From: Siphonodentalium dalli
Taxonomy: Eukaryota; Mollusca; Scaphopoda; Gadilida; Siphonodentaliidae
DNA: 64,000 nt
NCBI GenBank assembly: GCA_032622095.1
Contig: CP136068.1
Coordinates: forward strand, 10,583,729-10,647,728
Direction of reading: 5' to 3'
This document shows, piece after piece, positions 760 through 62,085 of the stretch; within the stretch, counting starts at the first letter, position 1; every line of letters begins with the position of its first letter. The position numbers and the translations under genes were made by a program. The notes beneath the pieces are model-generated. The model saw only the letters and a list, made by a program, of their open reading frames with translations, ran no database searches and had not been told where the DNA came from.

Positions 760-911
760 CAAAGGTCCATTAACTGAATCGTTTGACTGTCTTGAGCTTT
801 ACTACGATAAGTGCAAGGAACGTATCAAAGGGACGACCCCGCTGGACATGTCGCTGGTCAATTTCGGTGGAATGAGCTCGGCTATCACCTACACGTGTGA
901 CAACAAGGATG
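760..911 (+). CDS. Exon A: cysteine-rich ectodomain segment (residues 1-50 of the visible protein)
   Basis: The acceptor ttttaacag is preceded by a long C/T tract from 728. The donor is GATG|GTAAGA. The first base completes a codon from an upstream exon outside the window. The frame from 761 encodes 50 residues starting KGPLTESFDC and ending AITYTCDNKD, with Cys 10, 18 and 46. The other two frames contain early stops. The exon ends with one base (g911), which joins TG of exon B to make Val. Composition is GC-richer and codon-like compared with the AT-rich flanks. Extracellular location is inferred from the downstream transmembrane exon. Confidence 0.8.
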
Positions 912-1697
912 GTAAGATTGACACTTCTATATACTAAATGAAATCTCCAATAAGTTATAAAAAGTTTACATTGGAATGGTCTGGATGAATGTCCAGTTAA
1001 TGTAAACAGACGACAGATAATACAACCCCAAATTTGGTCATCATTTTCAACAGTTGGACATTTCGTGCTGACACATGTACGATAGTTGAACATTATGCAC
1101 CACATATTGGTTGAAATTGTTCTGAATATTTGAGTTTTTGACAAGTATTTAGTGAGGAATTTGTCAAATGGTACTTCGCAAACATATCATTATTTTTGTC
1201 TGGTTCAAGGGGGTGTGCAATTGGAAATTTGAAGGTGGATACCTCACTCATCGGAGACCCTCTAGCGAAGTCCCAGGACGTGATATTGACACTCTCGCGT
1301 ATTTCAGGTTTGTGCATGAGTTATATGAAGCCAACAAATAATTGATATCCATCTTGTATTCACTGGAATTGATATAGTTCAATGCATTTATAAACTGAAT
1401 CTCTCAACAGATAAAAAACTTTTACGAAAATAGTTTGTCAGTTTTGAACTCTCGCAGCACAGTGCTCGAATTCTCAATTAAACCCACGATTAGTCTAAAC
1501 GCAGCAACAGTTAAGATGTCCGGCATACATTATATGATGTCCCAGACTCTTTGAAACCCGACGAATATCCTAACGGATGAACGTCTCTAGATGTATCCAA
1601 AGAGTATGTGCATCAATACTAGAGGGTATTAACGGAAACTACAAAAGAATATAGTTAAAAATGATACGAGAAAATTCTACTTTACAAATATAGAGTT
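912..1697. other. Intron 1, start: nothing identified
   Basis: AT-rich sequence without splice-bounded open frames or clear repeats. Small open frames on the minus strand at 770-1317 are shadows of exon A or random. Confidence 0.5.
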
Positions 1698-1823
1698 ATG
1701 CCACATTATAATTCACTACCATATTTCATAGTTTCAGCTGGAAGTATAGAACTGTTCAAAACATATATAGACTCACATTTTCATGATATGAGATACGATT
1801 TCGATGACTCCCATGCACGGTAA
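1698..1823 (+). pseudogene. LINE reverse-transcriptase C-terminal remnant
   Basis: A 41-codon frame ending in TAA reads MPHYNSLPYFIVSAGSIELF and then FKTYIDSHF. This matches the usual last segment of many non-LTR retrotransposon ORF2 proteins (W/Y-N-S-L-P, then S-x-x-x-F-K-x-x-L/I-D). A one-base shift just upstream (about 1690) links it to RKFYFTN, the usual preceding 'FFxxR' element. About 75 bases downstream is a (GAT)n-like stretch of the kind often seen at LINE 3' ends. It is too short to assign a clade, and it is an inactive relic. Confidence 0.5.
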
Positions 1824-2697
1824 TGTGATTACTACTTAAACAATTTGTAAATGTTACCGGAACGAGAAGTCTTGGGACTTGTTCCGCTGAATATGATGAT
1901 GATGACTATATTTCATTTATACGACGACGCGACATTCCCAACATGACGCAATAAACCATTTCCAAATATGCAATGCATTCCTGGCGTAGTAAATGTTTAT
2001 GAGAAACGTAGTATTTAGAAATGGTTATACATACAACAAGATGCTAAAGACAAATCTCGAAGATGATGTCTCCTATATTGCGCGTAGTAAAATGAATTAT
2101 CGATATATCGCCTGTATTCAGTTTTCCAATAATATTTCCGCTTGACAACCCGATCACATGTGTGTGACATGGCGTAAACACTGTAATATAACATTGTGAT
2201 TAATATTGTGATTAGAATAACATTTGCATGCATCGTTATTTAACATGTATATATTTGTCATTTTATATATGCCCTCCTAAATTGATGAGGTTAACAGTAA
2301 ACATAATGCGTGGGTAATTGTCAACACACCATTGATCTCTGATCTGTGAAGTTATCTGTTATGCCATAAACCAATGAAATCATGCGTAGTCTGTGCCACT
2401 CTTCAATGAAATGGAGGGGTTCCATTCAATACAGAACCTAATGTCAATATATAGTTCTAGAGACGTACATCCGACATATGATTTTGGTCTCTTGGATCGG
2501 CAATGCGTCTTCTCGTATTTAAGTATGTGTACACAGGACTGGTGCCATTTTATTTTATTTGAGATGTCTGAGCTCAACGACTATATATAATACGAGTGCC
2601 GCAGTGATATTGACCAACTCCATATATTAACATTGTCTCGCATTGAATTACAATTAAACCAAGATATCGTTTGCTAAATTACCACTTTCGTATAAAG
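1824..2697. other. Intron 1: nothing identified
   Basis: Apart from a short GAT run near 1893-1910, no gene, repeat array or splice-bounded frame is recognised. Confidence 0.4.
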
Positions 2698-2880
2698 TAC
2701 ACTCTAAGAATTAGGGGTTCTTTGGGTTTCTTTGAAGAACTCAAGGGTTCTCTGTAAGAACTCCAAGGTTCCTCGGTGTCAGAAAAGGTTCTCTGTAATC
2801 GATAGGGTTCGTCGGTGTGTAACTAGTGTTCAATTGGATGCTGAAGGGTTCTTCGTGAACAAACAGTAATGCAGTTGATA
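2698..2880 (+). repeat. GAAGAACC-type MITE-like repeat, truncated copy
   Basis: Begins acactctaagaa, the inverted counterpart of the ttctaagagtgt that ends the copy at 16090-16473. The interior is a run of short alternating gttct/agaac palindromes, such as gggttctttggg and gaagaactc. The second end is not found, so this copy is partial. The superfamily is unknown. Confidence 0.5.
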
Positions 2881-3101
2881 CATGCGCCATGGAGCCGCAT
2901 TGAGTGATTAACATGAATAAAACATCAACCAGAGAGAAAGGAGCATGTGTTTGTTCGCAGGGTTGTGGAATGGTAATGTATAATAGTAATTCATTGCAAT
3001 ACATTACATTTCCTCACTTTTCTGCATTATATCATGCAAACTTTTACGCGTAGCATAAATACAAATATGTAGGCCTACTACTAACCAAAAATGGTGTGTA
3101 A

Positions 3102-3185: not shown

Positions 3186-3261
3186 TGAAAAGGTCCGAGC
3201 ATTCCTTCTCCCTCCCCTGTCATCGCCCTTGGCAGGGAGTGGTTAATCGAGTGATAATTTA

Positions 3262-3520: not shown

Positions 3521-3526
3521 AATTCA

Positions 3527-6450
3527 GCGCCTTTTAGATAAACGGGAGAGGGCTGTTCATGCAAGAGAAGCTGCGACTGGGCAGCAGCGTGAACAGCGCC
3601 TTTTAGATATCCGGGAGAGGGCTATTCGTGCTCAGGAAGTGTAAACTGGGCAGCAGAGTCAACAGCGCCTTTTAGATCTCCGGGAGAGGGCTGTTCTTGC
3701 TCGATAAGTGGAAACTGGGCAGCAGCGTGAACAGCGACATTTAGATCTCCGGGAGAGGGCTGTTCATGCTGGAGCCGTTGAAACCGATGAGCAGCGCCAC
3801 CACGAGACTGATCGTCCACGGCGTTATGCACACGCGATCGTGGAGTGGCAAAACGCCGCTTTCGTTTATGGCACTCACATCGACTACAAGTCGCACCGAA
3901 TTTTGCCGAATGACCGAATTGTGTCAACATTGTCGCGCTTTCAAATGGCAAGGTGAACCACCAGGCATATGCTGCTTGAATGCCAAAGTTATGCTTGAAC
4001 AACATGCTGATCCACATGAACCTCTCCAAGACCTGCTTCGTGGTTCAATCCCAGAATCTAAACATTTTCTCAAGAACATCCAGAAATATAATGCCGCATT
4101 CCAAATGACATCTTTCGGGTGAAATATCATAACTGAAGGTGTGTATATGCCAACGTTCAAAGTTCAAGGTCAGGTTTACCATCACATCGGCCCTCTACAA
4201 CCCAATGATGATGCACAACCTCAATACATGCAGCTATACTTTGTTGGTGATTTCAATAGAGAGGTAGAACTCCGTTCCGCGTTGTCTGATGGCACCAGGC
4301 CTGAAGTTATATATACTCTCCAGCAAATGATCCATCAACACAACTCGTATGTGTCCAGTTTTAAATATGCTCTAGAAACCCACAACACAACAAATTTGCA
4401 GGTAGTCATAGACGCTGACAGAAGACCACTCAATCAACACAGTGGTCGATTTAATGAACCTGCGTCCAATGAGATAGCGGTCGTTTTAGCAGGCGCAGAA
4501 TATGGCAAGCGTTATATTGTTTTAGACCGTCGTGACGACACTATACGTCACATTTGAAAGACACATAGATCGTACGCCCCTCTCCAATATCCCATCCCCT
4601 GTGTCTTCGGTGAAGACGGATATACGTTCGGTATACCACACTCATTCGGCAACAAGAATGTGTCATGTAAGGACTTTTATTCTTCTCATTTCATGGTTCG
4701 TGATGGGTCCTTCAACCGCTTGCACCGATGCCGGAACCTGTTAAGTCAGTTTGCTGTAGATGTGTACGCCAAAGTGGAGGGTGAAAGACTCCTCTATATT
4801 CGGAACAACCAAAATAAACTCCGTGCAGATTCATATAATTATACACCTCTGTGATAGCATAAATAATGATCAGGAGAGAGCCGGAGTCGGCCAACTGGTA
4901 ATCCTCCCGTCGACATTCACAGGTAGCCCGCGATATGTGCACGAGAAGACGCAGGATGCTATGACATCTGTCAGGCACTTCGGTCGTCCGGACCTTTTCA
5001 TCACATTCACGTGCAACCCTGCATGGCAGGAGTTGAAGGTTGAATTGTTCGAGGGCCATGTTTCTAAAGACAGGCGTGACTTGACAGCTAGAGTGTTCCG
5101 TCTGAAATTGACGAAGCTCGTGAACCTTTTGAAGAAACCGCACATTTTCCGCCAACCTGTGTGCGATATGTATGCGGTTAAAGAGAGAACTACCACACGC
5201 ACACATTTTAACGTGGCTTAAACACAAAATACGCCCTGAACAGATCGACAGCTTCATTTCTGCCGAATGTCCTGATCCTGATGATGATCCAGAATTGTTC
5301 GAGACTGTGAAGGCTCATATAATACACGGTCCATGTGGTCCATTCAATTTCAATTCGCCCTGCATGAAAGATGGAAAATGTACGAAGCAGTACACTCGGG
5401 CGTTCCTCTTAGAGCCACAAACTGGCCATGATTGCTATCCACTTTACAGGAGAACACCAGATCATGGCGGAAATGTCGCCAATATCAAACTAAAAAATGG
5501 ACAGGATTTTGTTGCAGACAATATGTGGGTTGTTCCATATTGCCCCATGTTATCAAAAATCTTTAACGCACACATCAACGTTGAGTTTTTCAACTCTGTA
5601 AAAGCTATAAAGTATGTATGCAGATATATCAATAAGGGGTCAGATGCTGCGATGTTCGCCCTACGAGACATGAAAACAAAGGACGAGTTGAATCAATTCC
5701 AAATGGGTAGGCACATCAGTACCAATGAAGCGTTTTGGCACGTTTGACTTACCCATCCACGATAGACACCCAGCCGTCCTTCGACTTGCTGTGCATTTCG
5801 AAAATGCACAGAGACGGTACTCCACCGCACAAACAGCGGCACAAGTTGTATCGGCACGGAAAGAGACGACACTCACTGCCTTTTTCAAACTTTGCCAAGA
5901 TGATGATTTTGCCAAGACAATTTTGTACTGTGACCTATCTTATTTCACCTTTTTCAATAACCGATGGGTCCGCCGCAAGCGTGGTGAACCCGTCAAAGGA
6001 GGAGTCTTGGGCGTGTTCAAACAATATGCTCTCGGTAGGGTCTACGCTGTGTATCCCCATTTTTCTTGAGAATGCTGATGTATGGAGTGGAATGTCCAAC
6101 ATCGTTTAACTCATTATGAACTGTCGACGGCCAATTATGCCTTAGCTACATATAAGCGTGCTTCAAATGGGACTATTGTAAGACGACCACCAATGGGAGG
6201 CAACGATGACAGAGTCAGCCATGTCAAAGTCCTTAGTTTGCGTAGTTTGTTTGCGACTCTCTTGCAAATATGTAGTATTGCAAATCCTCTTAATTTGTGG
6301 CTCCAATTCAGAGAAAAACTCTCGGATGATCTTAAGTACTGGTTGCAGGTTGCAAATCCTGGCATTGATGTTTCATTCAGTGATGATATTTTCAATGCTT
6401 CTCTCATCCAGATCGGAGTCCGGGAGTGTTTTGGACGGGTCAAATTGTGA
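3527..6450 (+). pseudogene. Helitron replicase (Rep) pseudogene, helicase part missing
   Basis: Broken plus-strand frames follow the Helitron protein order. 3527-3800 holds four units of an exact 69-bp repeat (RLLDIRERAVHA-type, 23 aa), as in Helitron N-termini. Near 3915-4122 is a zinc-binding C-x2-C ... CC segment followed by SKHFLKNIQKYNAAFQMTSFG-like sequence. 4141-4557 reads MPTFKVQGQVYHHIGPLQ. 4860-5220 reads GQLVILPSTFTGSPRYVHE and FGRPDLFITFTCNPAW. Near 5190-5215 is LPHAHIL, which carries the HUH metal-binding pair. 5540-5640 reads VKAIKYVCRYINKGSD, with the two-tyrosine Rep motif. Known family: HUH rolling-circle replicase-helicase. At least five frameshifts or stops are visible, and the sequence decays near 6450 before any SF1 helicase motif. 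It is inactive. It lies in intron 1 of the host gene. Confidence 0.88.
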
Positions 6451-6484
6451 CTCCCGACCTGACCTTAACATTCAATATGGTCAA

Positions 6485-7330: not shown

Positions 7331-7334
7331 TATA

Positions 7335-7660: not shown

Positions 7661-7920
7661 AAAAAACTTCCGGTTATGACGTTGCAGCGATCGGACGCAT
7701 TTTAAAACGAAGTCCATTTAACTTAATAAGTCAGCTGCGAAAGGGGGATCGGTGTTCCTAATAGACAGGAATTGCTTCAGACACTAAGAGGTATGAGACA
7801 CTCGCGAAAATACATTTAGTAGTGGAACAGTGATGCCCTATTTCTGCGTTTAATTGCGGACTTCAGTGACCGCCCAGTGGCCGCCATCTTGAATACACAA
7901 AGATAAATAAACAATACCAA

Positions 7921-8865
7921 ATGACAAACAAAAGAAAACAAAACAAGAAGCACAGTAATAGTGATAAATCTAACTCAACACTGGAGAGTGACGACAGTTT
8001 CAATCCGGAACCTAAAAAACAACTAACAATGGAAGACTTTATGGGAAAACCGGGTGCCACCCCTCCGTCTCCAATTTTGGGTGATATCCCTAAACAACTT
8101 GAGAATTTAATTGCTAGAGTTGACACACTTACAGAAACGTCGACAAAGAATCACGATTCATATTCCAAGGAACAGCAATCGCAGATACAAAATTTTGGAC
8201 ATATTGTTAGTAAATTTAAAGAAGAGATTCTTCAGGCTTTCAATGAAAAGGTTATTGCGTTTGAAAATAAAATAAAAGTACTGGAAGTGGAAAACAATAA
8301 CAAAATAACAGAGTTCGAAAAAAGAGAAAATGATATGTCAGAAGAACTGGATAAAATGAAGTACAGATATAATGACTTAGAACAACAGGGGAGAAAGGAC
8401 AGTATTCGCATTTTTGGCATAGAGGAGTCGGACAGTAAAGAGACGGCTAAAGACTGTAGAAGGAAAGTGTTGGAATTGTTTAAGAGACGTCTTAACTTAG
8501 ATCTACATGTGAGTGAAATCGACATGTGCCACAGGATAGGAAAACATTTCAAAGGTACATCACAAGTGAAAGACATTGAGGAACAAAATAATCAGCGACG
8601 TAAACCGAGGGCTATTATTGTTAAGTTTGTGAACAGATTCACTAAATATGACGTCATTGAGGCCAGGAGTAACCTGAAGAAATCAGGCATTTCTATTGTT
8701 GAGGATGCCACACAGCTGAATCATGAACTGCTTACTAAGGCTTTCAAATCTACGTGTGTTCAAAACTCTTGGCTCACAAATGGCAAATTATACCTGAAGC
8801 TCTCATCTGGGAAAATTGAAAAATTCCATACACATGAAGAGCTAAACAAAATAATTGACAATTAA
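7921..8865 (+). CDS. LINE ORF1 protein, L1-type nucleic-acid chaperone (314 aa)
   Basis: Intact 314-codon frame. Residues 1-40 are Lys/Ser-rich and basic. About residues 60-160 form heptad-rich sequence (NKITEFEKRENDMSEELDK) consistent with the trimerising coiled coil of L1 ORF1p. LEQQGRKDSIRIFGI at about 156-170 matches the start of the RRM-like domain of the Transposase_22 (L1 ORF1) family. DMCHRIGK and KPRAIIVKFVNRFTKYDVI follow, and the C-terminal domain ends near residue 310. Known role: binds LINE RNA and aids target-primed reverse transcription. ATG 7921 is the first in the frame and follows a 260-bp 5' UTR. No CCHC zinc knuckle is visible, unlike Tx1-type ORF1. Confidence 0.85.
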   Translation: MTNKRKQNKKHSNSDKSNSTLESDDSFNPEPKKQLTMEDFMGKPGATPPSPILGDIPKQLENLIARVDTLTETSTKNHDSYSKEQQSQIQNFGHIVSKFKEEILQAFNEKVIAFENKIKVLEVENNNKITEFEKRENDMSEELDKMKYRYNDLEQQGRKDSIRIFGIEESDSKETAKDCRRKVLELFKRRLNLDLHVSEIDMCHRIGKHFKGTSQVKDIEEQNNQRRKPRAIIVKFVNRFTKYDVIEARSNLKKSGISIVEDATQLNHELLTKAFKSTCVQNSWLTNGKLYLKLSSGKIEKFHTHEELNKIIDN

Positions 8866-10623
8866 TATGTTGAGATATGCTCAGATGCTAGCTGTGTATG
8901 TAAATATGTTGTATTTTTGTAGCATGTGACCTAATGATGTAATGATTTTGAAAAATGACCTAATCCAATCACAAGATATCTTGTGATCCAAACACCCCCT
9001 TACCCAATATAATTGCTTTAATAGAATCCCTAAAACCCCAGTTGTGGCAAATTATATAATCCCCAACACTAAATATCCTTTAAAAAATAAGCCTTATTTC
9101 ATAGCTTAAAGACGTGACTTCAGAATTACACTTGATTACATAATTATATCATATATATTTAACTACAAAGTATATATAACACCGAAATGTCGCCCTGTTA
9201 AACTCGGCGATTTTCAGCAAGCATCCTACCCCAATGTAAGCTACTTTTATAGCTGGAATGCAGTCACTTGACATGCAGTGACATGAGTTCAGTGTTATTC
9301 TTGATTAGATGGTTATATTAGATACATTGTTTTGCATATTATACATATTTTTATAATATACCAAAAAATACCCCCCCCCCCCCCAATAATGTAGATTCTC
9401 GTGAAATTGAATAGTCTTTGACCCTTTGACATACAATTTGTTTGAATAGTACATTCCTCCAGCGGCTCCACGCCATGTATGACGCGAGCAGTGCCACCTA
9501 ATATCTACTTTGGATTTACCTTAAATAGCTGTTAAACATTCGACCTTTTTAACTTTGTAATCCCGTCAATCTCCAAATAAAACAATTCTTAGGGTTTTTC
9601 ATAAATGAAGTCATCCTTTAAAGTAATCCTGACATAACGTTTGTTCAGAAGAGACACAATATGATCCATAGTAAATCCAGAATTACGAATGATACATTAA
9701 ACTCCACATCTTATTTTGACACATTCTGAGTCAGCACAGACGGAAAGCACAATGAATAACCTGACTTTTGGCCTAATTATTTGTGTCACACGAACACTGT
9801 TAACAATAATCACCCGTCTCTACTAAGTGTTAATAATTGTTGGAATTTGTCCATTTATCGATCGGTTTGCCGAGTATCTAAATATAGCGGACTGACTGAA
9901 GTCAACTATATGCTCAAAACGTCCAGATTTAACAAATGTGCTGTCATTTTCTCCATGAACAGTTTCATTTTATTCAAGACTTGAAAGGCACTCTGTATTA
10001 CATATAATATAATGTAGAATATACCACACTTTCAAACAGGGTGCTGATATTGACCCCTGTCTTAATTGGTATTTCGTGCTATGTAGTTTGTTCTGCCTGG
10101 AGCACCACTTCACATGACTAAAATAGATAATATAATACTTACTCAATAAATATATGTATGTGCTGACTCGTGTAGGTACTGTGGTCAGGATATATCATGG
10201 TATAAATAATTATGTTATTATAACAGGTAATCAGAATCTCTTTCACTATACTTTAATGTATTCGTGTATATGTATGTTGCCTCAGACACCCCCCCCCCCC
10301 CTTTTTATTTATTTTTTATTTTTTATTATATTTTTTTTCCCGGGGTTTTGGCAAGCCAATTGCCCTAACCTATATTATATATTGCCACCACTGGGCGGTC
10401 AGTGTTGTCCATCCAAGCTGACAACAACCTTCAACCGGTATGTATTTGTCTTTGTTTTTGCTATTTCTGTACTCTACCTTTGTTATGCATGTGTCTCTTT
10501 TCTTAGTGCGAATGAATGTGACATCAAAATGTACCATAATGTTATATGCATATATGTACCGTATACATTACCAAATAGTACACATTTCTGGTTCGGCAGC
10601 TAGGGCGTCCGCATATAATATCA
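8866..10623. other. Long LINE inter-ORF spacer (1.76 kb) with two poly-C tracts
   Basis: L1-type elements usually have short inter-ORF gaps. This one holds poly-C runs at about 9371-9384 and 10290-10301 and a pyrimidine-rich stretch at 10300-10345. It also holds 'ccactgggcggtca' near 10386-10399, the reverse complement of 'tgaccgcccagtgg' at about 7867-7880 in the 5' UTR. No supported coding region. A nested insertion between the poly-C runs is possible, but no ends were found. Confidence 0.6.
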
Positions 10624-13600
10624 ATGAGTACTATTAAAATTTTGTCTCTGAACTGCCGTGGACTTAACCAAGCCGAGAAACGCCGAGACGTCTTTCACCA
10701 CATTCGTAACATGGAGGGCTCGATATATTGCTTGCAAGACACACATTTCACTAAACACATGGAAAGGTGTATTGAAACAGAATGGGGATGCAAAGCGATA
10801 ATGTCATCTTATACTTTCCAGGCTAGAGGTGTAGCTATTCTATTTAGAAATAACTTTGAATATAGTATCCACGAAACACATAAAGATTCTGGTGGAAATT
10901 TTATTATACTCGACATAACCATAGAAAATATACGTTTAAGTTTGGTGAACTTGTATGGGCCAAATGAAGATAATCCAGCATTTTACTCTAACCTAAAAAA
11001 TTAATTACCCAGATTGGGAACACGCAAATAATCATGTGTGGAGACTGGAATCTGGTACAGAAACAAGACTTAGACACTTATAACTACAAACATTTAAACA
11101 ACCCCCGCGCCCAAAATGAAGTTGCGGACCTTTCCGGCAGCCTCGAACTAGTTGACGTGTGGAGATTATTTAACAAACAAGAAAGACGCTATACGTGGAG
11201 AAGAAAATCCCCAATTAAAATGGCGAGGCTAGATTACTTTTTAATTTCGGAGGACCTCCTTAATCTAGTGGGAAAAGGACCGACAATTTTACCCGGATAC
11301 AAAACAGATCATTCTATTATTTCACTCCCATTAAACGTCAGTGACATCAAGACTGGTCCAGGTTTTTGGAAATTTAATAATTCTCTGTTATACTGTAGAG
11401 AATATGTCGACTTAGTAAAAGGAATCATAGCTGAAAACAAAATAAGATATTCTTACTCCTCAAATGAGGAAAAAAACATTAAAAATTGCTCCATTGGAAA
11501 ACGACTATTTCTCGACGCAGTGTTGCTTGATATCAGAGGCGATACTATACGATTTTCTGCAAATCGAAAACGTGAGCGAATAAAAATTGAGAAAAATCTA
11601 ACATTAAAAAAGGCAAAAATTATTTCTGATCTTGAGCATCCATCATATAGCTCTGAAGAAAAGCAAAAAATAATGGAAGACTTAGAAAAAGTAGAAGTCG
11701 AAATGGAAGCAATGCGAAGAGAAACAATCCGCGGAACCATGGTTAGATCTCGTGCAAAATGGATAGAGGAAGGCGAAAAACCAACAAAATATTTTCTAAA
11801 TTTAGAAAAACGTAATTACATTTCCAAAGCCCTGACCAGCCTGACAGTGGCGAATGATAGTACAATCACAAAACAAACCGATATCATGAAAGAAGTCCGA
11901 AATTTTTATCTTAATTTATACTCATATAGGTCAATGGACGATCGCGATTTAAAATCCCTTCTTAACGATGGAACCGTTCCTAAACTAAGCAACATGCAGG
12001 CCTCGAGTATTGAAGGACCTTTAACCTTGCAAGAATTAACAGATGCGCTTAAGACCACAAAAAATAATAAAAGCCCAGGGCCATCCGGATACACTTATGA
12101 ATTTTATAAATTTTTTTGATCTGACCTTGGCCCCTTCTTAACAGAGTCGCTCAATGAATCGTTTTCAATGGGGGAGCTATCAATCACACAAAAACAAGGC
12201 ATTATAACGTTGATACCAAAAAAGGATAAAAATAGGCAGATGATAAAAAACTGGCGTCCCATCACCCTCTTGAATACATCCTACAAACTAGCCTCGTCAT
12301 GCATAGCTGACAGAATAAAACGTGTGCTCCCATCTATAATCAACTCCGATCAAACTGGGTTTCTAGCTGGTAGGTATATAGGTGACAACACCCGACTTAT
12401 ATATGACATAATTCACAGGACAAAGCAAGAAAATAAATCTGGCCTACTACTCCTTATCGATTTTGAAAAAGCATTTGACACTGTTTCCTGGTCATTTATA
12501 AGAAAATGTCTTGACCTTTTTAATTTTGGAGATGCAGTAAAAAAATGGATATCAATTTTGTACGAGAATGCCAGTTCATCTATTCTGATTAATGGTCATA
12601 TTTCTCAGAGCTTCATGTTAGGGAGAGGCTGCCGCCAGGGTGACCCAATATCCCCGTATATCTTCCTCCTCTGTGCCGAAGTTTTAGGGCTAATGATACG
12701 ACAAAACAATACAATTAAAGGGATTTTCCTCGGCGGTTCAGAGTACAAAATAACACAATATGCGGACGACACGACGCTCATACTTGATGGTTCTGAAAAT
12801 AGACTACGCGAATCGTACTTAACACTGGACGAATTTGCTCGGGTATCGGGTCAGCGCATAAATCCTGAAAAATGTCAAGCAGCGTGGATAGGGATTGAGT
12901 CACAAAATAAAATACGACAAGTGCTTTCGGAATTAAACCTGTCTACCGTAAACACCTTTAATTTTCTAGGCATTCATTTCGACACTAATTTAACAAACAT
13001 GAATATAAACTACAGTTATAAACTCGAAGATATTGATAGGACCACAAAAATTTGGAAACACAGACTCCTGACCCCTTTAGGTAGAATAACAGTTATCAAA
13101 TCACTAATCTTACCTAAATTGACACACCTATTTATAGCTCTCCCAAGTCCGGATACAGCCTTTTTGAAAGGCCTAAATACCTGTCTATATAATTTCATTT
13201 GGAATTCCAAACGCGATAGAATAAAAAGAAAACAATTATGTGCTGACCATATGTACGGAGGTTTGAAGATGATTAATGTTGAAAACTTTGATGCCGCCAT
13301 GAAAATTACCTGGATACGACGTTTGATTTGCAAACAATCGAAGTGGGCTTCACTATGCAATACCACCCCTCTCTTAAACGACCCACTCCTTCTCACATAC
13401 CACGCAAATTATATTGTAAAGCAAACAGACAAGTTCGCAAATCCATTCTGGAGAGACGTCTTCCGCGCATGGTGTAAATTTATGCGACTAAATAATGCAA
13501 ATGATAATATTATGACCTCAACTATCTGGAATAATCCGAACATAAAAATCGGAGGTTCGTCGATCAACTTGAAGTCGTGGAAAGATGCGGGAATATATTA

Positions 13601-14405
13601 TATAAATGATCTATTCCAATCAGATAATAAATTCCATACCCCATTCACATTATATGCAACTTTCAACATCCGCGTCGATTTCATAACAATCAACAACATA
13701 AAGCGTCAGATTTTCTCATTGGCAAGTTCTCTTAATCAACGCTTAATCCGTATGCCATGTCCATTCCTACCCAACAATCTCGCTCCGATACTCCGTGACG
13801 TAAAAGGCGGGCAATTATTTTACAAAACTCTAACAAATGGGAAAAATATGCCGAATGCATGCCAAAAATGGGAATACGAAATAGGCGAGAAGATAGAAAA
13901 TTGGGAAGAACATTTGAGCATGCCCTTTAAAACGACAACGGATACGAAATTACAGTGGCTCCAATTCAGAATAAACACACGAATTATTAGTACCAATAAA
14001 TTTCTGAAGATGGCTAACCTTAGACTCGACGATTTTTGCAATCGCTGTCAAAATGTACAGGAAACCATATCTCATATTTTCTGGGATTGTCCCCACGTCC
14101 AAACCTTTATACTAGAAATTAAAACATGGACAAGAAACAACCAATTTCCAATTGATCTAACAAAAAAGATTATAATTATAGGTATCGATCATGAATACAG
14201 ATATTCAAAAATTAACCTTTTCCTACTAGTGTTGAAACAATATATATATAGGACCAAATTCACACCGACACAGATGTCGCTTCGCCCGTTCCTTTGCGAT
14301 CTTCAATTTAGGTATGAATGCGAGAGATACAACGCAAAATGCAACATGAATCACGACTTCGATAATCAGTGGGTGGCACTGCGAAATGCCTTAAAAATAA
14401 AATAA
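10624..14405 (+). pseudogene. LINE ORF2: APE endonuclease + reverse transcriptase + zinc knuckle, one frameshift and one stop
   Basis: 10624-11004 opens with MSTIKILSLNCRGLNQAEKR, then LQDTHF and NLYGPNED (APE endonuclease). The frame shifts near 11000 at an A-run ('ctaaaaaatt') and continues 11010-12116 with MCGDWNLVQ, TWRRKSPIKMARLDYFLIS and TDHSIISLP (catalytic D and H). One in-frame TGA lies at 12117. From 12120 the same frame runs 762 codons, with IITLIPKKDKN, NWRPITLLN, SDQTGFLAGRYIGDN, LLLIDFEKAFDTVSW, GRGCRQGDPISPYIF, the catalytic YADDT near 12760, and FNFLGIHF. The C-terminal knuckle is C-N-R-C-x8-H-x4-C near 14037-14088. Known role: target-primed reverse transcription. With only two lesions, this copy is young but probably not autonomous unless the lesions are assembly errors. 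Confidence 0.92.
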
Positions 14406-18409: not shown

Positions 18410-18411
18410 AG

Positions 18412-18526
18412 TGTTCCTGAATCCGAACAGCGCACAGTGTCTGGTACAGAAGAAATCCGACTTCGTGCAGTGTTTTGAAAAGATTCCATCCCCACGTCGT
18501 GGAGACCTCGACTCCGTTGTTTGCGG
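18412..18526 (+). CDS. Exon B: cysteine-rich ectodomain segment (residues 51-88)
   Basis: The acceptor atgtatttcag is followed by TG, which completes GTG (Val) with the last base of exon A. The frame encodes FLNPNSAQCLVQKKSDFVQC and ends GDLDSVVC, with Cys 60, 71 and 88. The donor TGCGG|GTAAGC leaves two bases that join G of exon C to make Gly. The exon is GC-richer than its surroundings. Its acceptor is the last, modified unit of the upstream minisatellite, so the pyrimidine tract is poor. Phase fit on both sides is the main support. Confidence 0.8.
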
Positions 18527-19060: not shown

Positions 19061-19063
19061 CCA

Positions 19064-19121: not shown

Positions 19122-19129
19122 TTGAAAGA

Positions 19130-32504: not shown

Positions 32505-32740
32505 GAATTATGTTGACGCAGCTCTGTGCTACGACCTCGCTGGAGATTGCAGCCAAGAACTGGTCGCTGTTGCCCAAAGAGCGATTGGCAAAATGAAGCC
32601 CGCTTTCTGTCGTGTTGTTACTGGTGTCTCTCGAGAGGTAACTACGTCATATGTCTCTCGAGAGGCAACCACATCATATGTCTCTCGAGAGGCAACCACA
32701 TCATATGTCTCTCGAGAGACAACCACACCAAGCTCGTACG
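32505..32740 (+). CDS. Exon C: last Cys-rich segment and VSREATTSY mucin-like repeats (residues 89-167)
   Basis: The acceptor tgtatctatttcag is followed by G, which completes GGG (Gly) with exon B. The frame encodes NYVDAALCYDLAGDC, then KMKPAFC (Cys 97, 104, 124). Four repeats follow from 32626: VSREVTTSY, VSREATTSY, VSREATTSY, VSRETTTPSSY. The donor GTACG|GTAAGT is perfect consensus and leaves one base in the codon. The 27-bp repeats are near-identical and each contains ctctcgagag, a perfect palindrome. The Ser/Thr density suggests an O-glycosylated stalk, which is an inference. The antisense strand is also open here but has no gene context. Confidence 0.88.
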
Positions 32741-34049
32741 GTAAGTCAAATACACGTTTCGTAGGTATGCGTTAAAAAATGGCCGATTAATAAGAATATC
32801 TTAATTTTACTGTTATGTATGGGACAACACCAATACCATTTCGGGAAATGAATACCTTATCTATAAATGCATGTAGCTTTAATTCAGGTACGATATATAT
32901 GGGAAACTCGGTACCTAGTGTGTGTTATTTTGGGTTTCTGCTATCTTTTCTGTTCCTATTATTTATGATAGTTCATTACAATAAATACTTTAATAACTGG
33001 GTGGGAGAATCCATTTAGTAGATAGCGGGTTACTCAGGGATGGGTACACGCTACATGGTAGTAGTACGGCTGAATTTGTAAAATTGGACCACAAGATTTT
33101 AGTGCATGCAATACATTAGAGAAACTTATCTTTTAAACAAGTTTGTTCACCCAGTGACTGACGCGCGAAGCGCATCCAGTGGGTGTGTATAATCGTAGGA
33201 CTTATACGTTTCTGCTGAATTGAACTAGTGCCTATGCATTTCTGCTGAACTGCACTGACGTTTGATCGCAAAATAAAATTATAATCATTATCAAAGCACA
33301 CGTTCGGATAACACCGCCATAAACAGTGACATATTACGATGTTGAGCTCGTATCGTCAATAAAATTAGAGTTATAACTTATAAAACTAAGAATTACTGCT
33401 AAAGTATTTCTACCAATTGGGTAACTAGATTCGTGTGGAGCTGGAACTAGAGAAATTTCAATTTCAACCAATTGAAATGCCGTTGATAACCGAAGGGTTA
33501 AGCGATTATCGCAATAGGATATGGGAACACCGTGTGCGTAACGTAACTATCACAAGTATAACGTACTCTGATAACAACTTATCGCCAAATTCATCCTTCA
33601 AAAAGTTTAAACATGTCATCTTCGGCTTCGTTTATTTTATTTTTATGAAGATGAATAATAAATGGGGTGATAAATATGTATAATATGTATATAACGACAA
33701 ATAGAGTAAAATTAGCCATTTTTCCGTGAAACTTAGGATAGGCAAGCCAGGTACAAAAATTGGTGAAATATGAGTACGAACGTAAAAGTGTTCCCCTATC
33801 GTATTGCGATAATTGCCAACCGTAACTGCGAAGCGAAGCCTCCAATGGCAATTATTAATTAATTCATTTCGGCAGTTCAGTCTTCTAAGCTATTAAAACT
33901 TTCTTGGATATCTTGGAAGTTGTTTTGGAAGGATTGTTCTGATATATAAATGTTGGATTAACCTTCCAAAAAGATGAGTTTGACGCCTGCATTTCTTGGC
34001 ATGAATATTAACGAGCGCTCGTCTGCAAGTACAGTCATTGCCGAATCGG
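32741..34049. other. Intron 3, start: nothing identified
   Basis: No gene recognised. Small open frames at 32815-33018 and 33435-33683 lack motifs. Confidence 0.4.
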
Positions 34050-44420: not shown

Positions 44421-44660
44421 AAAAAAAATTGTTATAATTGTATTTTAACTATTGTTTTGTCCTTTAATATTTCCCATACATCATGTAGGCCCTACACATA
44501 TATTATGCTAGAAAAGTAGTACTATTGTTACTAATAGTACTCGTAGTAGTTAATACCACTTACTGTCAATATTCTATCATGGTTAGTTTCAAAATCATAA
44601 CGTTAAATGTTATTACTATTTGTGTGTCTTGTACATGTACAACAGTCATCAATTAACAAA

Positions 44661-49861: not shown

Positions 49862-51049
49862 TTATTTATTATTGCAGTCAGTTCCACAATTGCAGAGTGG
49901 TGTGCAGGGTAACTCTGATTTTCCGCATATACACATTGCAGTTACACACCCCTTCTTGCACCCATATTTGATTATTTCGAGACATGATTTTGGAACGGTT
50001 TCTAGTGACATGGTTGGATCCAATCGACCATTTTCTTCTTTCCATCTCATTGTTGAAGGGTCCAGTAATGTTTGCACATGAATGGTTGCTTGTTTCCAAA
50101 CTAAAACCTGGTAGTTTGTTCTCAAAAGGTGGTACCGGTAATGAAATGAGTCACTGGTTGGTGGAAGTTTTTCAGGAGATTCAGTCGGAGGGAACATCCT
50201 GAACCTTGCATTGTTGAGTTTTGCATCTGAAACTCCATACAACTTGCATACAAAATGTTCAGCACTTTCAATTGTTTCAGTGAATATTGCAATATTACCT
50301 ATACCCGTTAAGAGTTCACAACATTCCAGGCTAATCTTCCATGCAGATCGTTTAGACACCCCGTATGAACGAAATTGAATCACACCCCGTTAAAGCATGA
50401 AACGCAAGAATATAGTTCAGAGCGTCGCTCGGTATTTGGGTGGCAACACCCCTGATGGGTATAATTTTAGGGTTTTTGAACGTTCCAGCCATCATGAACA
50501 CATCACAATATGCAGGAACTTTGTCTAGGTAACCAAGCAATACCACTAGAAGATCGACCTCCATACTTACCACTATAACTTGTTTCAGATTACACCCCAT
50601 GCTGGTATCAAGTGAATGAAGGATCAGTCTGGTGTCAGCCTCTTCGTGATTAGACTCTAACCCTTTCAAGTCTGTTCCATCTACCGAACAATATACTCTT
50701 CAATCTTCGGGGACCCCCCTGCAACAACAACAGAAACACCCTATGTTTTCGGTTTGGTAACAAGTTCTCGAGACAAGAAACCATTCAAATCGGACTTGTT
50801 GTCAGACAACAAAATTAAACTTTTTTAATTTATTGGGATGGGAACATCACGATTTGTTATTGTACGTCGGATCAATGGTACATTGCGACTTCTTCTCGAT
50901 CTGGTGGCAGTCTTGATAGATTTATCCGAGTATCTGTCGAACAATACATCAATCCAGACATAGCCTTCGCCCTTCTTCAACACGCACACTGATAATACAT
51001 CGGCCAAATATTCAAATGTATTTATCTTTTCCGGTCTATCTATAGCCAC
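49862..51049 (-). pseudogene. Transposon-type protein with C-terminal CXC-like cysteine cluster, left copy
   Basis: Read from 51049 down: FDRYSDKSIKTATRSRRSR, then NHEEADTRLILHSLD, VDLLVVLLGY, LAFHALTGCDSISF, AEHFVCKLYG, LPPTSDSFHYRYHLLRTNYQ and, at the end, GCKKGCVTAMCICGK with CTPLCNCGTDC. The order 'EEADTR ... HALTGCD ... Cys-rich tail' is that of a repeated protein family in invertebrate genomes that I associate with DNA transposons; the superfamily is not certain. The Cys tail resembles a tesmin/TSO1 CXC motif. Frame breaks near 50700 and 50390 make it inactive, but the last 174 codons are intact. Confidence 0.7.
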
Positions 51050-51331: not shown

Positions 51332-51419
51332 TTTCTTGTCTCGAGAACTTGTTACCAAAGCGAAAACAGAAGGTGTTACTGTTGTTGTTGCAGAGGGGTC
51401 CCCGACGATTGCAGAGTAG

Positions 51420-52107
51420 ATTGTTCGGTAGATGGAACAGACTTGAAAGGGTTAGATTCTAATCACGAAGAGGCTGATACTAGAATTATCCTTCATTCAC
51501 TTGATACCAACGTGGGGTGCAATCTAAAACAAGTTATTGTGATAAGTAGGGACGTCGATGTTCTAGTGTTATTGCTTGGTTAACAAAACAAATTCCCTGC
51601 AGATTGTGATGTGTTCATGATGGCTGGAACTTCCAAAAGCCCTAAAATTTTACCCATCAGGGATTTTGCCACCCAAAATACCGAGCGACGCTCTGAACTA
51701 TATTCTTGTGTTTCATGCTTTAACGGGGTGTGATTCAACTTCGTTCATATATTGGGTGTCTAAACGATCCGCATGGAAGATTTACCTGGAATGTTGTGAA
51801 CTCTTAAAGGGTATTGGTAATAGTGTAATATCCACTGAAACAATTGAAAGTGCTGAACATTTTGTATGCAAGTTGTACGGAGTTTCCGATGCAAAACTCA
51901 ACAATGCAAGATTCAGGATGTTCCCTCGGACTGAATCTCCTGAAATGGTCGATTAGATGGTCACTAGAACCCATTCCAAAATCATGTCTCGAAATAATCA
52001 AATGTGAGTGCAATAAAGGGTGTGTAACAGCAAGGTGTACATGCAGAAAATCAGAGTCACCCTGCACACCACTCTGCAACTGTGGAACTGACTGCAATAA
52101 TAAATAA
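51420..52107 (+). pseudogene. Transposon-type protein with CXC-like cluster, right copy
   Basis: Mirror of the 49862-50720 copy: SNHEEADTRIILHSLDT, DVDVLVLLLG, VFHALTGCDSTSF, AEHFVCKLYGVSDAKLNNAR and, at the end, CNKGCVTARCTCRK with CTPLCNCGTDC. It has a stop near 51582, frame changes near 51660 and a small deletion near 51950 relative to the left copy, which keeps LPPTSDSFHYRYHLL. The two copies differ at many positions, so the palindrome is not brand new. Confidence 0.7.
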
Positions 52108-56553: not shown

Positions 56554-56658
56554 CTATTCCAACAACTGATGCATTCACGATTCCTATCATAGGAGGAGTT
56601 GCCGGCGGCGTTATGTTTGTCGCTGGAATCATTGTTGCTGTACTGCTATGGATGCGAA
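56554..56658 (+). CDS. Exon E: transmembrane segment (residues 187-221)
   Basis: The acceptor gatgttttgcag is followed by CT, which completes GCT (Ala) with exon D. The frame reads IPTTDAFTIP, IIGGVAGGVM, FVAGIIVAVL, LWMR. Residues 196-220 form an uninterrupted hydrophobic helix with GGxxGG, a small-residue pattern known to favour helix packing in membranes. The donor CGAA|GTATGT leaves one base, which makes AGA (Arg) with exon F. The Thr just before the helix continues the stalk character of exons C and D. A single-pass type I topology is inferred. Confidence 0.88.
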
Positions 56659-57148
56659 GTATGTATCTACCAGATTGGGACAATATGTGATAAAAACTTG
56701 AAACTGAAGGGTACATGTAACGATATATGGTATTTGCAAATATGTAACATAGACTCTGCCATACGTCGTTTAGACAGTGTTTATTGTAGCCATACCGCAT
56801 CCAGTTCGAACCTATAAATTATGTCACCTGACAAACACATTCCGCTCCATCCCTGATCAGACGAAAGTACTCGTTTGGTGAATCAGTTGGTATATTGGCT
56901 TCTTATTCAATCAACTATTTTCAATAATTGTCATTCGCATAAATAAAATCTACATATTCTGACAGTACTCTAACTTATTGTAAATACATGGAATAAGTAG
57001 GTAACAATTGCTGTCATGCACATGTAACAACATCACATTTGCATGAATGATTTTACCTCATATATTAAATAATATGTACACTTAATTGAGTTATTAAAAT
57101 TGAGTATATCTATGGTATATATACTGATAGCAATTATTTTAATTTCAG
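56659..57148. other. Intron 5: nothing identified
   Basis: 490 bp, ending in ttattttaatttcag. Confidence 0.6.
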
Positions 57149-57176
57149 GAAGGAGAGCTCACCAGCGTAATGCCGA
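57149..57176 (+). CDS. Exon F: 28-bp microexon, juxtamembrane basic segment (residues 222-230)
   Basis: ttttaatttcag|GA ... GCCGA|GTGAGT. The frame reads RRAHQRNA after the split Arg codon. With exon E this gives RRRR, a classic cytoplasmic stop-transfer after the helix. Both splice sites are close to consensus and both phases fit. Confidence 0.8.
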
Positions 57177-58518
57177 GTGAGTATGTGCATAGTGTTAACC
57201 CTCGGTTTTTGTCTGATATTTAATGTTATACAGTTCAGCACTGTCTTACTATGTTTTGCTAGAAGCATAATTGTTTGTGATTTACCAAATAACAAATGAT
57301 TTGGTCTACATGTTGCAGAAACTTACTGAAGACCCTCTTACAAGGGAATGTTGAACTACAATATATGTAAACAGGATGCCAGAGTATTTACAATTGTTGT
57401 GTATTACATATATTGAGTTATGAAGTGCATATACTGTTATAAAACAGGAAGTATGACTGCAAACACGAAAATTAATCAGAGCCAAATCGAAGGAAGACAG
57501 AAATGGGACGATTGTACACGCAATCACTCACACCACGATATGTCGCCGAACAGTTTATCACTCGGAAATGTATCTTAGCAAGGGCTATTTCAAATATGAA
57601 TTGTCGAAGCTAAAGAAACTTCACATATATACTGTAGCTTAAGAGGAAAAATAATTATTTCCTCGAAAATATACGAAAACAAAATAGGTGAATATACTTA
57701 TACGATGGTGATCTTTGTTAACGCTGATAAATACGATGAAGATAACGACGATGCTGATGACGATAATGACGCTGGTGGTTTTGATAATGACGTGTGTGTC
57801 TCAGACGGATTTATGACTGGTGTTCCAATTACATATGCCAGTTATAATACCTGCACCCTAATTATCCACTGCAATGTCGCCAACTTTATACAATAATGGT
57901 CACTGACAAGTATCAAACTATATGTATATGGATGCTCTGTGACTATGTACAAGCAGTATATTGCCAATACTTCAATAATTCCAGTTGCACGTCGTACGTG
58001 TATCTAGCGCACAATTGACATTGTTAAACTGGAACCCTTTGCTGCATATCAGATACTCCAAAATGGAAAATTTAATTTTCTTGAACAACAATTGAGAAAT
58101 ATGGATGTGATGGCGCTCCTGATTCACAATTACTGTGCTCAATGTCCGGCGAAGCATCTTTTTCCAAACGCTCCTATGGTCGTGTATTGTTTAAACTTCG
58201 ACTTGTAGATAACCATCATTATTCCCGAAAGACACGGAGGAAATATTTGAAAATTATTTCAAAACGTAATGAAAAAGTAGTTGAATTACATGACGTTTGG
58301 TGAAATAATACACTACTCTGAATTAATGGAAAACAGGACAAATTACACATTGCTGTGCATTACTTGCGCAACAGTAATGCGTTGTAATGTATTAGCATTA
58401 CATATCACCATTACCGGGCCCTGACAAACAACGCACGCTCATATATATACAAGTATTGTAACTTCATATTCTGAAAATGACATGTTATTCCTTCACCATT
58501 TGCGTAATTATCTTTCAG
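57177..58518. other. Intron 6: nothing identified, GAT-rich patch
   Basis: 57735-57790 is a degenerate GAT/GAC run ('gataacgacgatgctgatga'). No gene is recognised. It closes with aattatctttcag. Confidence 0.5.
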
Positions 58519-58604
58519 TGCACAACATTATGATCACAGCAGACGAGAAACAGAACCAGTGTGTCATTATGATGATCTAGCAGCAAGAGACAGCAGAACA
58601 CCTG
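58519..58604 (+). CDS. Exon G: cytoplasmic tail with HYDH and HYDDL (residues 231-259)
   Basis: The acceptor aattatctttcag is followed by T, which completes GAT (Asp). The frame reads AQHYDHSRRETEPVCHYDDL and then AARDSRTP. Two tyrosines lie at 235 and 248, the second in YDDL (a YxxL motif). The donor CCTG|GTAACG leaves one base, making GCA (Ala) with exon H. The open frame continues past this donor to at least 58660, where 'ATG|GTGTGT' is an alternative donor, but that phase does not join exon H in frame. Confidence 0.78.
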
Positions 58605-60432
58605 GTAACGAAGTTAATCATGATAATCCGACCACAACCGACCAAAAACAGCACATGGTGTGTTTGTTTACTGATACTTAATTGAATATACAATCAACAT
58701 TATGTTGATGAATTAGCATCAAGAATAATCTAATGTATATATCCCCATATAAGTCTACAGTTTTAAAATGTCATAGATGTAATTAATCTGTATAGTTTTA
58801 TAGGGATATACATGTTATTAATGTTAATTACATAGCAGAGAAAAATTTAAATCGTTCATGCTATTTTGAAATTTATAGTAACGTAGCTGTGACGTCGCAT
58901 GTTGTCACGACGAAATTCCAACTCTAACGTTCAATTATGAAATGATGTAATGATCCATTTAAATATATTAGAGTTCTATTAGCAACTGCGAAATACTTTG
59001 TAACATGACGTGGATATAATTATCGTTCGGCACCACATACTGTGGCTATACGATTATTTGTTCGTGTATACAATAACACCGATAAATATTATTTGCGCTA
59101 TCCGTGAAGGGCCAAATCACTTCAGCGTTAGTGTGCTCGTGGATCTGTGAATAAATTAATCCTGATAGCACCGTCATCATCCGTGACACTGTGTCTGTTA
59201 ATACTATAACAACATACTTTAATTGTGTAAGACATCCGACGCATGATGGAGGGATATTAACGTACGTGCGAAGAGCGAACATCCGCTAAATATATCACAC
59301 ATATTTGAAGGTGGCAGTGAACAAATTGCATGGTTTAAAATGATAAATGTGTTAGGGTAAGTGTACATGTACCTCTGTAATAGTTAAGTACATCGTCCTT
59401 TAATTGTCAAACACTAAAACATTGGGTATGAGAAAGCTTTACTATGAGTCTAGGGAAATAATGACAACGTTCATAGGTATCAAGTCCTATTGTCTACACA
59501 AGCCATTGCAGCAGAAATGTGGATTTTCTTCCAACTGCTAACATCTAGCGGAAACCGTCGATATGTCTTCGGGTTGATTCGTTCTTCTTCGCTTGATAAT
59601 ATCCATATACAGAAAGAGTAAATCTAAATTTATGTAGCATTATAATATATTTGAATTACTCTCTGTTGATAATGATATTGAGAGCTTACGGACTCCGTAG
59701 CATATTGCAATACATCGCTTGATACACGCATGCAGGCATATGCCGACTACATGTTAGACATATATATATATATCGGTCACCATTGTTCGTGCATTTAAGT
59801 CCACATATTTTCAAGAAAAGTATGCAACTTCTTGATTCGGGAACTGACCAAAACAATCACTGCAACGCATTGTTGATTTTTTATAGGTTGCACACAATTA
59901 CGGAGAGCAGTTACAATTGTTGTTAGGTTGATACACCATCTAATTATGCGTTTTTCTACATTTAGCTGTAAGGGCATAACCGTCGAAACATATACGGTAT
60001 CAATTTCCTCGGTGTGTACCACAACCTGCATTTGAAGATACAAATACTCAATCAGATAGTGTTATTTTATCACATGTATATCACTTATCAATCATCTGGA
60101 AAACATAAAAATTGACCTGTTGAAAAAATGAATACCGTACGTGTTGTGCTAGATGTGGAAGTTTGTGCAAATCCCATTGCCCACGTTTTACTTGCGTGTT
60201 GAATTATCCTTATCGTCATCATCATATTTGATAACGAATGTTCGGCCTAATAGCTAAATCTAGTCGTATTTGCAGTGAGTTTGTGAAACCTCTCTACAAT
60301 CTTCTCCGTCCATTGGCAAACATACAGTAGTCACTCAAATAACAACGCATTTTGGTGTCGGCATTTATGCATTTATCACTAATATTATTCATGCTGACCT
60401 ATTTTAAAAGTTAAGTTATTGATATGTTGTAG
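58605..60432. other. Intron 7: nothing identified
   Basis: 1.8 kb of AT-rich sequence. Open frames at 59046-59282 and 59795-60043 (minus) have no motif or splice context. Confidence 0.5.
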
Positions 60433-60457
60433 CAAATCGTCGGAGCCTTCCTGTCAC
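60433..60457 (+). CDS. Exon H: 25-bp microexon (residues 260-267)
   Basis: ttgatatgttgtag|CA ... GTCAC|GTGAGT. The frame reads NRRSLPV after the split Ala codon. The donor is strong. The acceptor has a weak pyrimidine tract, so this is the least certain exon. Without it, exon G (phase 1) could not join exon I (needs phase 2) in frame, which supports its reality. Confidence 0.65.
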
Positions 60458-61143
60458 GTGAGTACCAATATCATAGCTCGCGATTTGTATTGCAATTGTA
60501 ACAGAGTTAGTACCAAACAATAATACACGCGTTCTAGAATCATTCGCTGTTGTTTGTTCAAGATATCATGAACGTCCTTGGTCAGGTAGTAAAAGATCAT
60601 CGATAAATAATTGCATAGCCGGTTTGCTAATGTAACTCATGTCCCGTGGTTGGTCAACTGTCAATTTTTGAATTAATTGTCACAACCAAGACAAACCCAA
60701 AGTCACATATTGTTAACCTGTAATTTCGCTATTGTGGATCGAAGAACCTTCGCGTTGGTCATGTTTCAAAGGTTCATTTCGAAAGGTAACCTGATTGTGC
60801 TTCACATACAAACATTGAATTTAATACATAATTAATCAAATTTCAGGAGATATATGGACAAACTGACTTTGTACTTCGTCAGATGTCAGTCAATGTTAGT
60901 TATGAGATGGGCAGATAATTATCTCATAGCTAATGCAGTACAACGGGAAGTCCATTACGACCGTTCGAACATATACTCTGGTTGTATCTCTATATGAACA
61001 ACTATTACTGCATTCGAAAAAATTAGCCTTTGTTTGGGAATGATGGCACACATTGAGGTAACATTCTTGTAACCGTTAACAATACTTATACCTTTGACAA
61101 ACTTCTCTGTTAATCAAACTATCGACTTATGCTTTGTGTACAG
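60458..61143. other. Intron 8: nothing identified
   Basis: 686 bp, closing with atgctttgtgtacag. Confidence 0.5.
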
Positions 61144-61238
61144 TCCAATAGATCCAAGCACTTACGAGACATTGGATGCTGAGCAGACTGACGAAAATAA
61201 ACAATATTGTGGACTGGATGGCGTCGTATTAGATATTG
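61144..61238 (+). CDS. Exon I: cytoplasmic tail with ITIM-type STYETL (residues 268-299)
   Basis: The acceptor tttgtgtacag is followed by T, which completes ACT (Thr). The frame reads PIDPSTYETLDAEQTDENKQ then YCGLDGVVLDI. S-T-Y-E-T-L (273-278) fits the ITIM consensus (S/I/V/L)xYxx(I/V/L). Y289-C-G-L gives a second YxxL after a 10-residue gap, near the spacing of an ITAM under its broad definition. The donor ATTG|GTAACG leaves one base, making GGC (Gly) with exon J. The open frame runs on to 61321, so intron retention would add a short alternative tail. Confidence 0.8.
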
Positions 61239-61945
61239 GTAACGTCCAGGCTGCATACATGTATACCGACTGCAAATCTATGGGTGAGAATTACTATCGT
61301 ACTACAAACATTAACTGCTGATTTATTGTCGGATACTACACATATACCCGTGATAATTACTGACGTAATACCAATCTAATGGAGTTAACGTATTGTCATA
61401 CTAAGACTGTTATGTTGAGCATTTATTGTCGTATTACATATATACACGTGGTGATATACAGTCGTACTTCAAATCTAATGTTGAGAATGTGTTATCGTGC
61501 TACATATATACTGGTGCGAATTAACTGTTGTACTACAAATCTACAGATGACCATTTACTGTCCAATTTATTTATCGTACCATACACGTATAATAAATTGG
61601 GATGGCATATCCAACTTGTTGGTGGTTCTTATATATACAATATTCGCTCGTATCTCATTTCAACAAGATATTCCAGGCAGATTTTGGTGATCCATTTTGA
61701 AATATCACGATATTTTGGCGAAAACATACGTCTTACCTTTAATACGGTTGATCGCGTGAAGCTAAAATCTCACTGCGAATGATTAGCTATGATGCGATCA
61801 ATAATCCTGCTTACAGTCGCCAAACAGTTTTCCTCTTCATACGTATTGGTTTAAAATAAGTCAAATAAGCTGTTTACTTTGGGAATAGAACATTTACACC
61901 CAATTCCCTCTATTTTCACATAACACCCAAGTCGTTTACATTTAG
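61239..61945. other. Intron 9: repetitive
   Basis: 61310-61560 has irregular repeats of the type 'ttgtcgtattacatatatac' and 'gtactacaaatctaatg'. No separate gene is seen. It closes with gtcgtttacatttag. Confidence 0.5.
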
Positions 61946-62085
61946 GCTCTGTGAATCCATCCAGTTCACAACATTGTGACCACGCCGGGATGGAACCGAA
62001 ACCGGAAAGTCACTATTCTGTTGCCTATGGAACACAGGGCGAAGTCGCGGATACCGAAAACACCTACATAGAACTCACTGACTGA
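61946..62085 (+). CDS. Exon J: C-terminal tail and stop (residues 300-345)
   Basis: The acceptor gtttacatttag is followed by GC, which completes GGC (Gly). The frame reads SVNPSSSQHCDHAGMEPKPE, SHYSVAYGTQGEVADTEN and TYIELTD, then TGA at 62083-62085. It has tyrosines 323, 327 and 340, the last in YIEL. The remaining frames have early stops. A polar, acidic C-terminus with clustered tyrosines fits a phosphorylated receptor tail (inference). Which kinases or SH2 partners bind it cannot be read from sequence. Confidence 0.82.

Follow-up and report, generated by a model that had tools for sequence, protein, structure and literature searches.

A putative chimeric cell-surface receptor in the scaphopod Siphonodentalium dalli, pairing a GPI-type ectodomain with a tyrosine-tail receptor

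We analysed a 64,000-nucleotide window of the genome of the scaphopod mollusc Siphonodentalium dalli (C8:10583729-10647728, contig CP136068.1, in a genome of 2.23 Gb in nine contigs), in which a preliminary description had placed a receptor-like gene hidden among transposons. On balance, and with slightly better than even confidence, we favour the view that this locus is a chimeric cell-surface receptor, in which a glycosylphosphatidylinositol (GPI)-type ectodomain gene has been fused onto a tyrosine-tail receptor. Its exons match two gene families that reside in different places in the genome, and the two halves would be united by a 23.8-kb splice from exon 4 to the transmembrane exon, exon 5 (32740/56554).

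Within the window, nine exons on the + strand span positions 760-62085; all have an AG acceptor and all except the last have a GT donor, the phases match at every join, and the 1,027 nt form one frame of 342 codons plus one base. Nine AG/GT joins over 345 codons had been reported: the single frame holds, whereas we count 342 codons, eight internal joins and, at 760, one more acceptor. Nor does the gene start at 760, because a further ectodomain exon (exon 1; ~C8:10574670-10574875) is found ~9 kb upstream of the window, where the preliminary description could not include it. Joined together, the ten exons give a plausible product of 409 amino acids, which recovers the coordinates and topology originally proposed: a cysteine (Cys)-rich part with 14 Cys, a stalk that is 47% Ser/Thr, a transmembrane helix (IIGGVAGGVMFVAGIIVAVLLWMR) with RRR behind it (RRRR in total), a tail containing nine tyrosines and the motifs STYETL, YCGL, YDDL and YIEL, and a stop. 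The exons, numbered from the first letter of the window, are as follows.

Exon 1, -9058..-8854, + strand: ectodomain, outside the window; starts YVTAVSA/ECSD.
Exon 2, 760..911, + strand: ectodomain SKGPLTESFDCLELYYDKCKERIKGTTPLDMSLVNFGGMSSAITYTCDNKD; phase 2 in, phase 1 out; canonical splice sites.
Exon 3, 18412..18526, + strand: ectodomain VFLNPNSAQCLVQKKSDFVQCFEKIPSPRRGDLDSVVCG; phases equal to those in paralog B (described below).
Exon 4, 32505..32740, + strand: last ectodomain Cys block to ~32620, then 27-bp repeats (stalk) and donor GTAAGT.
Exon 5, 56554..56658, + strand: juxtamembrane segment and transmembrane helix AIPTTDAFTIPIIGGVAGGVMFVAGIIVAVLLWMR; paralogous transmembrane exons on C8 and C2.
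Exon 6, 57149..57176, + strand: 28-nt microexon completing RRRR (AHQRNAD), too short for a homology test.
Exon 7, 58519..58604, + strand: tail AQHYDHSRRETEPVCHYDDLAARDSRTP; 58% match at C8:13111243.
Exon 8, 60433..60457, + strand: 25-nt microexon (ANRRSLPVT), placed by the phase requirement.
Exon 9, 61144..61283, + strand: tail exon PIDPSTYETLDAEQTDENKQYCGLDGVVLDIGNVQAAYMYTDCKSMG; >40 genome copies.
Exon 10, 61946..62085, + strand: last coding exon, terminus YIELTD-stop; 85% relative at C8:7501058.

Agreement of the phases had been offered as very unlikely to arise by chance. This argument fails: under ordinary acceptor and donor thresholds and with free site choice, 31 exons totalling 2,807 nt can likewise be chained in compatible phase on the reverse strand of the window, where no such gene was seen, so phase match alone proves nothing when sites are freely picked. 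The exons are credible because of homology instead. At the protein level, relatives of exons 2-5, 7, 9 and 10 are present at other genomic sites; their order is kept where several are visible, and their boundaries are identical where readable; exon 2 has paralogous exons on C7 with identical ends. Judged by sequence homology, the individual exons are real and the gene model is a genuine multi-exon animal gene.

The same comparisons do not uphold the idea of one receptor of single origin. Relatives of exons 1-4, in matching order, lie at C7 154.55, 154.75, 169.38, 180.02 and 180.06 Mb and at C6 191.77 Mb, with weaker relatives at C2 165.6-165.8 Mb and C9 11.1-11.2 Mb, although some exons are not seen in some copies. 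We read the sequence of the C7:180.06 Mb copy (paralog B; C7:180055997-180068626), which has four ectodomain exons with phases as in the window copy, joined to an open protein of 216 amino acids. This protein stops inside exon 4 with a hydrophobic C-terminus of the GPI-attachment type, ...GCTMTGLSAIVLLILSLAARFFHD-stop (...KPAAGRGCTMTGLSAIVLLILSLAARFFHD-stop), which is common to the copies at C7:154.56, C7:154.76, C7:169.38 and C6:191.77 Mb; the copy adjacent to paralog B, at C7:180.02 Mb, has a disrupted exon 2. The paralogs on C7 and C6 are thus probably GPI-anchored surface proteins. The suggestion of an undescribed surface-receptor family is therefore half right: the ectodomain matches no known family, but the five other clean copies are GPI-type and end before any transmembrane segment or tail, which here come from another family.

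The window ectodomain is ~50-55% identical in amino acids to the C7/C6 family, agrees with it in splice phases (2, 1 and 2 at the exon ends) and has all 12 of the 12 framework Cys; C49 and C61 of the joined model, both in exon 1, are additional (14 vs 12 in relatives). Intron DNA is also common to the window and the C7 copies between ~-10.3 kb and 32621; identity is mostly 80-90%, and insertions interrupt the shared stretches. What the window copy does not share is the hydrophobic C-terminus and stop in exon 4; a stalk repeat and a donor stand there instead. Window exon 1 holds CLIMKPKFDIELCVQM, which is not in the two C7 copies read and resembles CLVQKKSDIEQCVQM of their exon 3; it may be an internal repeat or a conversion that added a Cys pair. 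Two repeat arrays accompany the family: a ~46-bp direct repeat array (CATTGACATTCCCATGCAGTGTTCATC...) directly upstream of exon 3 (window 17500-18410), present in C7 paralogs too, and a ~65-bp tandem array past the stop, in which the GPI-coding segment is repeated (C7:154762128-154762580, C7:180068629-180068753 and C6:191772251-191773093).

In database searches, as in the preliminary description, the ectodomain went unrecognized: neither it nor its counterpart in paralog B drew a Pfam match with E values up to 10, and the PDB offered no matching family. Profile matches in the PDB to TAL-effector repeats cover ~35 residues, with no stretch significant alone, and were set aside as a repeat artefact; the remaining PDB match (E=1.8) was attributed to chance. 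For the transmembrane and tail part, EphA2_TM fell under its cut-off and was dismissed as a generic transmembrane match.

DNA homology to the C7 GPI-type paralogs breaks off inside exon 4 at 32621, where two features follow.

27-bp tandem repeat, 32621..32728, + strand: four imperfect units (VSREVTTSY/VSREATTSY/VSREATTSY/VSRETTTPSSY), replacing the GPI-type C-terminus of the paralogs.
Dispersed repeat fragment, 32729..32794, + strand: ~40 scored genome copies, nearly all starting at about this base.

The frame of exon 4 stays open through the 27-bp repeat to a strong donor, GTAAGT at 32741, which lies inside the dispersed repeat and with which the transmembrane exon is phase-compatible. If left unspliced, exon 4 would run for only about a dozen further codons before a stop, with no anchor. 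A tblastx match at 39137, farther along the window, seemed to offer a remaining GPI tail but was rejected, being unsupported at the DNA level and lying in repeated sequence.

Exons 5-10 belong to a second family. Relatives of the transmembrane exon are found at C8 10.39, 11.34, 15.15 and 16.21 Mb and at C2 144.26 and 167.98 Mb (kin include C8:10390229, C2:144258258 and C2:167981390), with 47-61% amino acid identity, and the characteristic tail exon of the C8 family (PIDPSTYETLDAEQ...) is present in the window, mostly at 54-74% amino acid identity. The >40 copies of exon 9 are clustered at C8 7.5-16.4 Mb, C2:15.9-39.4 Mb and C3:116.68-116.70 Mb. Exon order is kept in several places: a transmembrane exon and then tail copies at C8:10.390-10.403 Mb, exon 7 and then exon 9 at C8:13.11 Mb, and a weak exon 9 match followed by exon 10 at C8:7.50 Mb. 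By contrast, the 110 kb surrounding the C7:180 Mb copies contain no relative of the transmembrane or tail exons; because these exons recur on C8, C2 and C3 and not there, the two halves of the window gene stem from two families.

Copies of the 140-nt tail exon stand in tandem arrays, a few kb apart. Such an array is a trait of many C8 family members, whereas the window and the 40 kb downstream hold a single copy. Because the window tail exon is asymmetric (phase 2 in, 1 out), adjacent copies could not be joined directly in frame, and the arrays could represent either mutually exclusive tails or units of a microexon plus a tail exon. The C8:15.15-15.26 and 16.21-16.36 Mb clusters have nearly equal identities match for match, at an offset of ~1.06-1.1 Mb, and may stem from a large, recent duplication or from a haplotype that the assembly contains twice. 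Immunoreceptor tyrosine-based inhibitory and activation motifs (ITIM and ITAM) have the consensus [SIVL]xYxx[LIV], or YxxL-x(6-12)-YxxL, and exon 9 contains both STYETL and YETL-x10-YCGL. We infer that the tail would signal through phosphotyrosine and SH2-domain proteins.

The coding exons of the ectodomain have diverged more than the DNA around them. Between the window copy and paralog B, exon 2 is 70.5% identical, compared with 88% for the introns on both sides, and its nonsynonymous divergence is 0.34 per site, compared with 0.118 in introns (Fisher p=1.6e-7). Exon 1 shows a similar excess, exons 3 and 4 less. In a decaying copy, drift would keep pace with the introns; the ectodomain has therefore probably been under selection. 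The ratio of nonsynonymous to synonymous divergence (dN/dS), for which there are few synonymous sites, is 0.95 over the whole ectodomain (bootstrap 0.69-1.32) and 1.6 in exon 2. This pattern suggests diversifying selection, as expected of a recognition protein.

These observations can be assembled into a path from one kind of protein to another. A copy of a GPI-anchored, Cys-rich, fast-evolving gene, with its home cluster on C7, would have landed ~24 kb upstream of transmembrane and tail exons of the C8 family, in the same direction. The last exon of this copy would have lost its hydrophobic GPI-attachment tail, and an in-frame Ser/Thr-rich repeat (the stalk), together with a splice donor from a dispersed repeat, would have taken the tail's place. 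Splicing from the exon 4 donor to the transmembrane exon would then make a type I receptor out of a binding protein with a lipid anchor: an ectodomain under selection for change would bind a partner, a short repeat-made stalk and one transmembrane helix would connect it to the cell interior, and the phosphorylated tail (STYETL-x10-YCGL, ITIM/ITAM-like) would recruit SH2-domain proteins. Beyond this, we raise, tentatively and as a rather doubtful extension, the idea that the locus records the birth of an immune or allorecognition-type receptor, in which a transposable-element splice donor and a repeat stalk replaced the GPI end of a fast-evolving recognition protein and so captured a neighbouring receptor's tail.

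Several points weigh against the fusion. Given the two-family origin, the 32740/56554 join rests only on phase, orientation and splice signals, and it is the weak link of the model: exons 4 and 5 would match in phase by accident in 1 of 3 cases, the exon 4 donor may be an incidental feature of the dispersed repeat around it, and nowhere else in the genome is the fusion repeated in a paralog that could confirm it. The start YVTAVSA/ECSD resembles the end of a signal peptide, so an additional exon would be expected upstream, yet a search of 41 kb upstream and a comparison with two paralogs yielded no signal-peptide exon with a believable donor. The excess exon divergence, moreover, was measured over 49 codons, and conversion from a divergent gene copy may explain part of it. 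With ectodomain and tail drawn from separate families, the locus is either a chimera found nowhere else or a pair of adjacent genes. The second reading, a displaced and partly broken GPI-type ectodomain copy (760-32740, starting upstream of the window) next to a transmembrane and tail receptor (56554-62085) that either has its own 5' exons undetected in the 24-kb gap or is itself a remnant, is a serious possibility, if one well short of even. It would account for two families that are otherwise unlinked in the genome, and it draws on a gap packed with repeats and on a weak candidate first exon at 44607-44700, which resembles a signal peptide and ends in phase 1. Against it, a search of 32741-56500 gave no convincing alternative ectodomain or first exon, the few candidates looking like chance; exon 4, although without its GPI tail, has a Ser/Thr stalk in frame and a donor whose phase fits; and the ectodomain exons bear signs of selection rather than decay. 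The only DNA common to the region upstream of the transmembrane exon and other C8 tail genes consists of dispersed repeats.

Two further explanations carry much less weight. If there had been one ancestral single-piece receptor family, from which the C7 GPI-type copies derived by loss of the transmembrane and tail part, the two extra exon 1 Cys of the window copy might be ancestral; this is improbable, because all five clean relatives have the same GPI-type C-terminus, which makes a single change on the window branch simpler, and because tail exons recur with no detectable ectodomain of the window type nearby. Least credible of all is a chance assembly of exons from noise. Phase-compatible chains of such length are easily found in any 64-kb sequence, but the genome relatives of exons 2-5, 7, 9 and 10 refute this explanation for the individual exons and leave it applicable only to the microexons at 57149-57176 and 60433-60457.

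The setting among transposons, as originally described, is borne out. The window contains a Helitron remnant with a Helitron_like_N domain (3622-6450) and a long non-long-terminal-repeat (non-LTR) retrotransposon (7870-14405) with a coiled-coil first open reading frame (ORF1), an endonuclease-like part and a reverse transcriptase. A related, inverted pair of transposon-like ORFs is present at 49862-50389 (- strand) and 51332-52104 (+ strand), with a Cys-rich C-terminus, CTPLCNCGTDCNNK.

If the join is true, one genome displays the whole path by which a GPI-anchored binding protein became a signalling receptor: the donor and recipient families, the position of the break within an exon and the probable origin of the new donor site are all visible in it. 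It would also add to the few known invertebrate recognition systems a rapidly diversifying, Cys-rich ectodomain family without a Pfam match and, likewise, a large tyrosine-tail multigene family. If the join is false, two multicopy surface-protein families are nevertheless documented, together with the ease with which phase-matched chains link unrelated genes.

Among the closest comparisons are two families within the genome itself. The C7/C6 family has the same four exons, identical phases and common introns, to which the window copy adds the stalk, donor, transmembrane segment, tail and two Cys; the C8/C2/C3 family has the same order of transmembrane and tail exons, but many of its members carry tail-exon arrays where the window has one. 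Among vertebrates, CEACAM and similar paired receptors combine GPI-anchored and transmembrane members within one ectodomain family, the transmembrane ones with ITIM or ITAM tails, and such families undergo lineage-specific expansion and fast evolution; dog CEACAM1-related receptors reportedly bear an ITAM (PMC2110893). CEACAM ectodomains are immunoglobulin domains, however, whereas the window ectodomain is Cys-rich and has no Pfam match. A precedent for the kind of fusion, although its domains are unlike those of the window gene, is the amphioxus immune gene FrLRR, a readthrough fusion of a GPI-anchored folate-receptor-like gene with exons of another gene (PMC10199209, doi 10.1016/j.jbc.2023.104689). 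FrLRR resembles the proposed chimera in being an invertebrate immune-type surface protein whose fusion involves the single last exon that codes for the GPI site; FrLRR keeps a predicted GPI site and gains leucine-rich repeats (PMC10199209), whereas the window gene would lose its GPI-type tail and gain a transmembrane segment and a tyrosine tail. For the particular instance, its ectodomain and the apparent donation of a splice site by a repeat we found no known match, but the kind of event is one already known.

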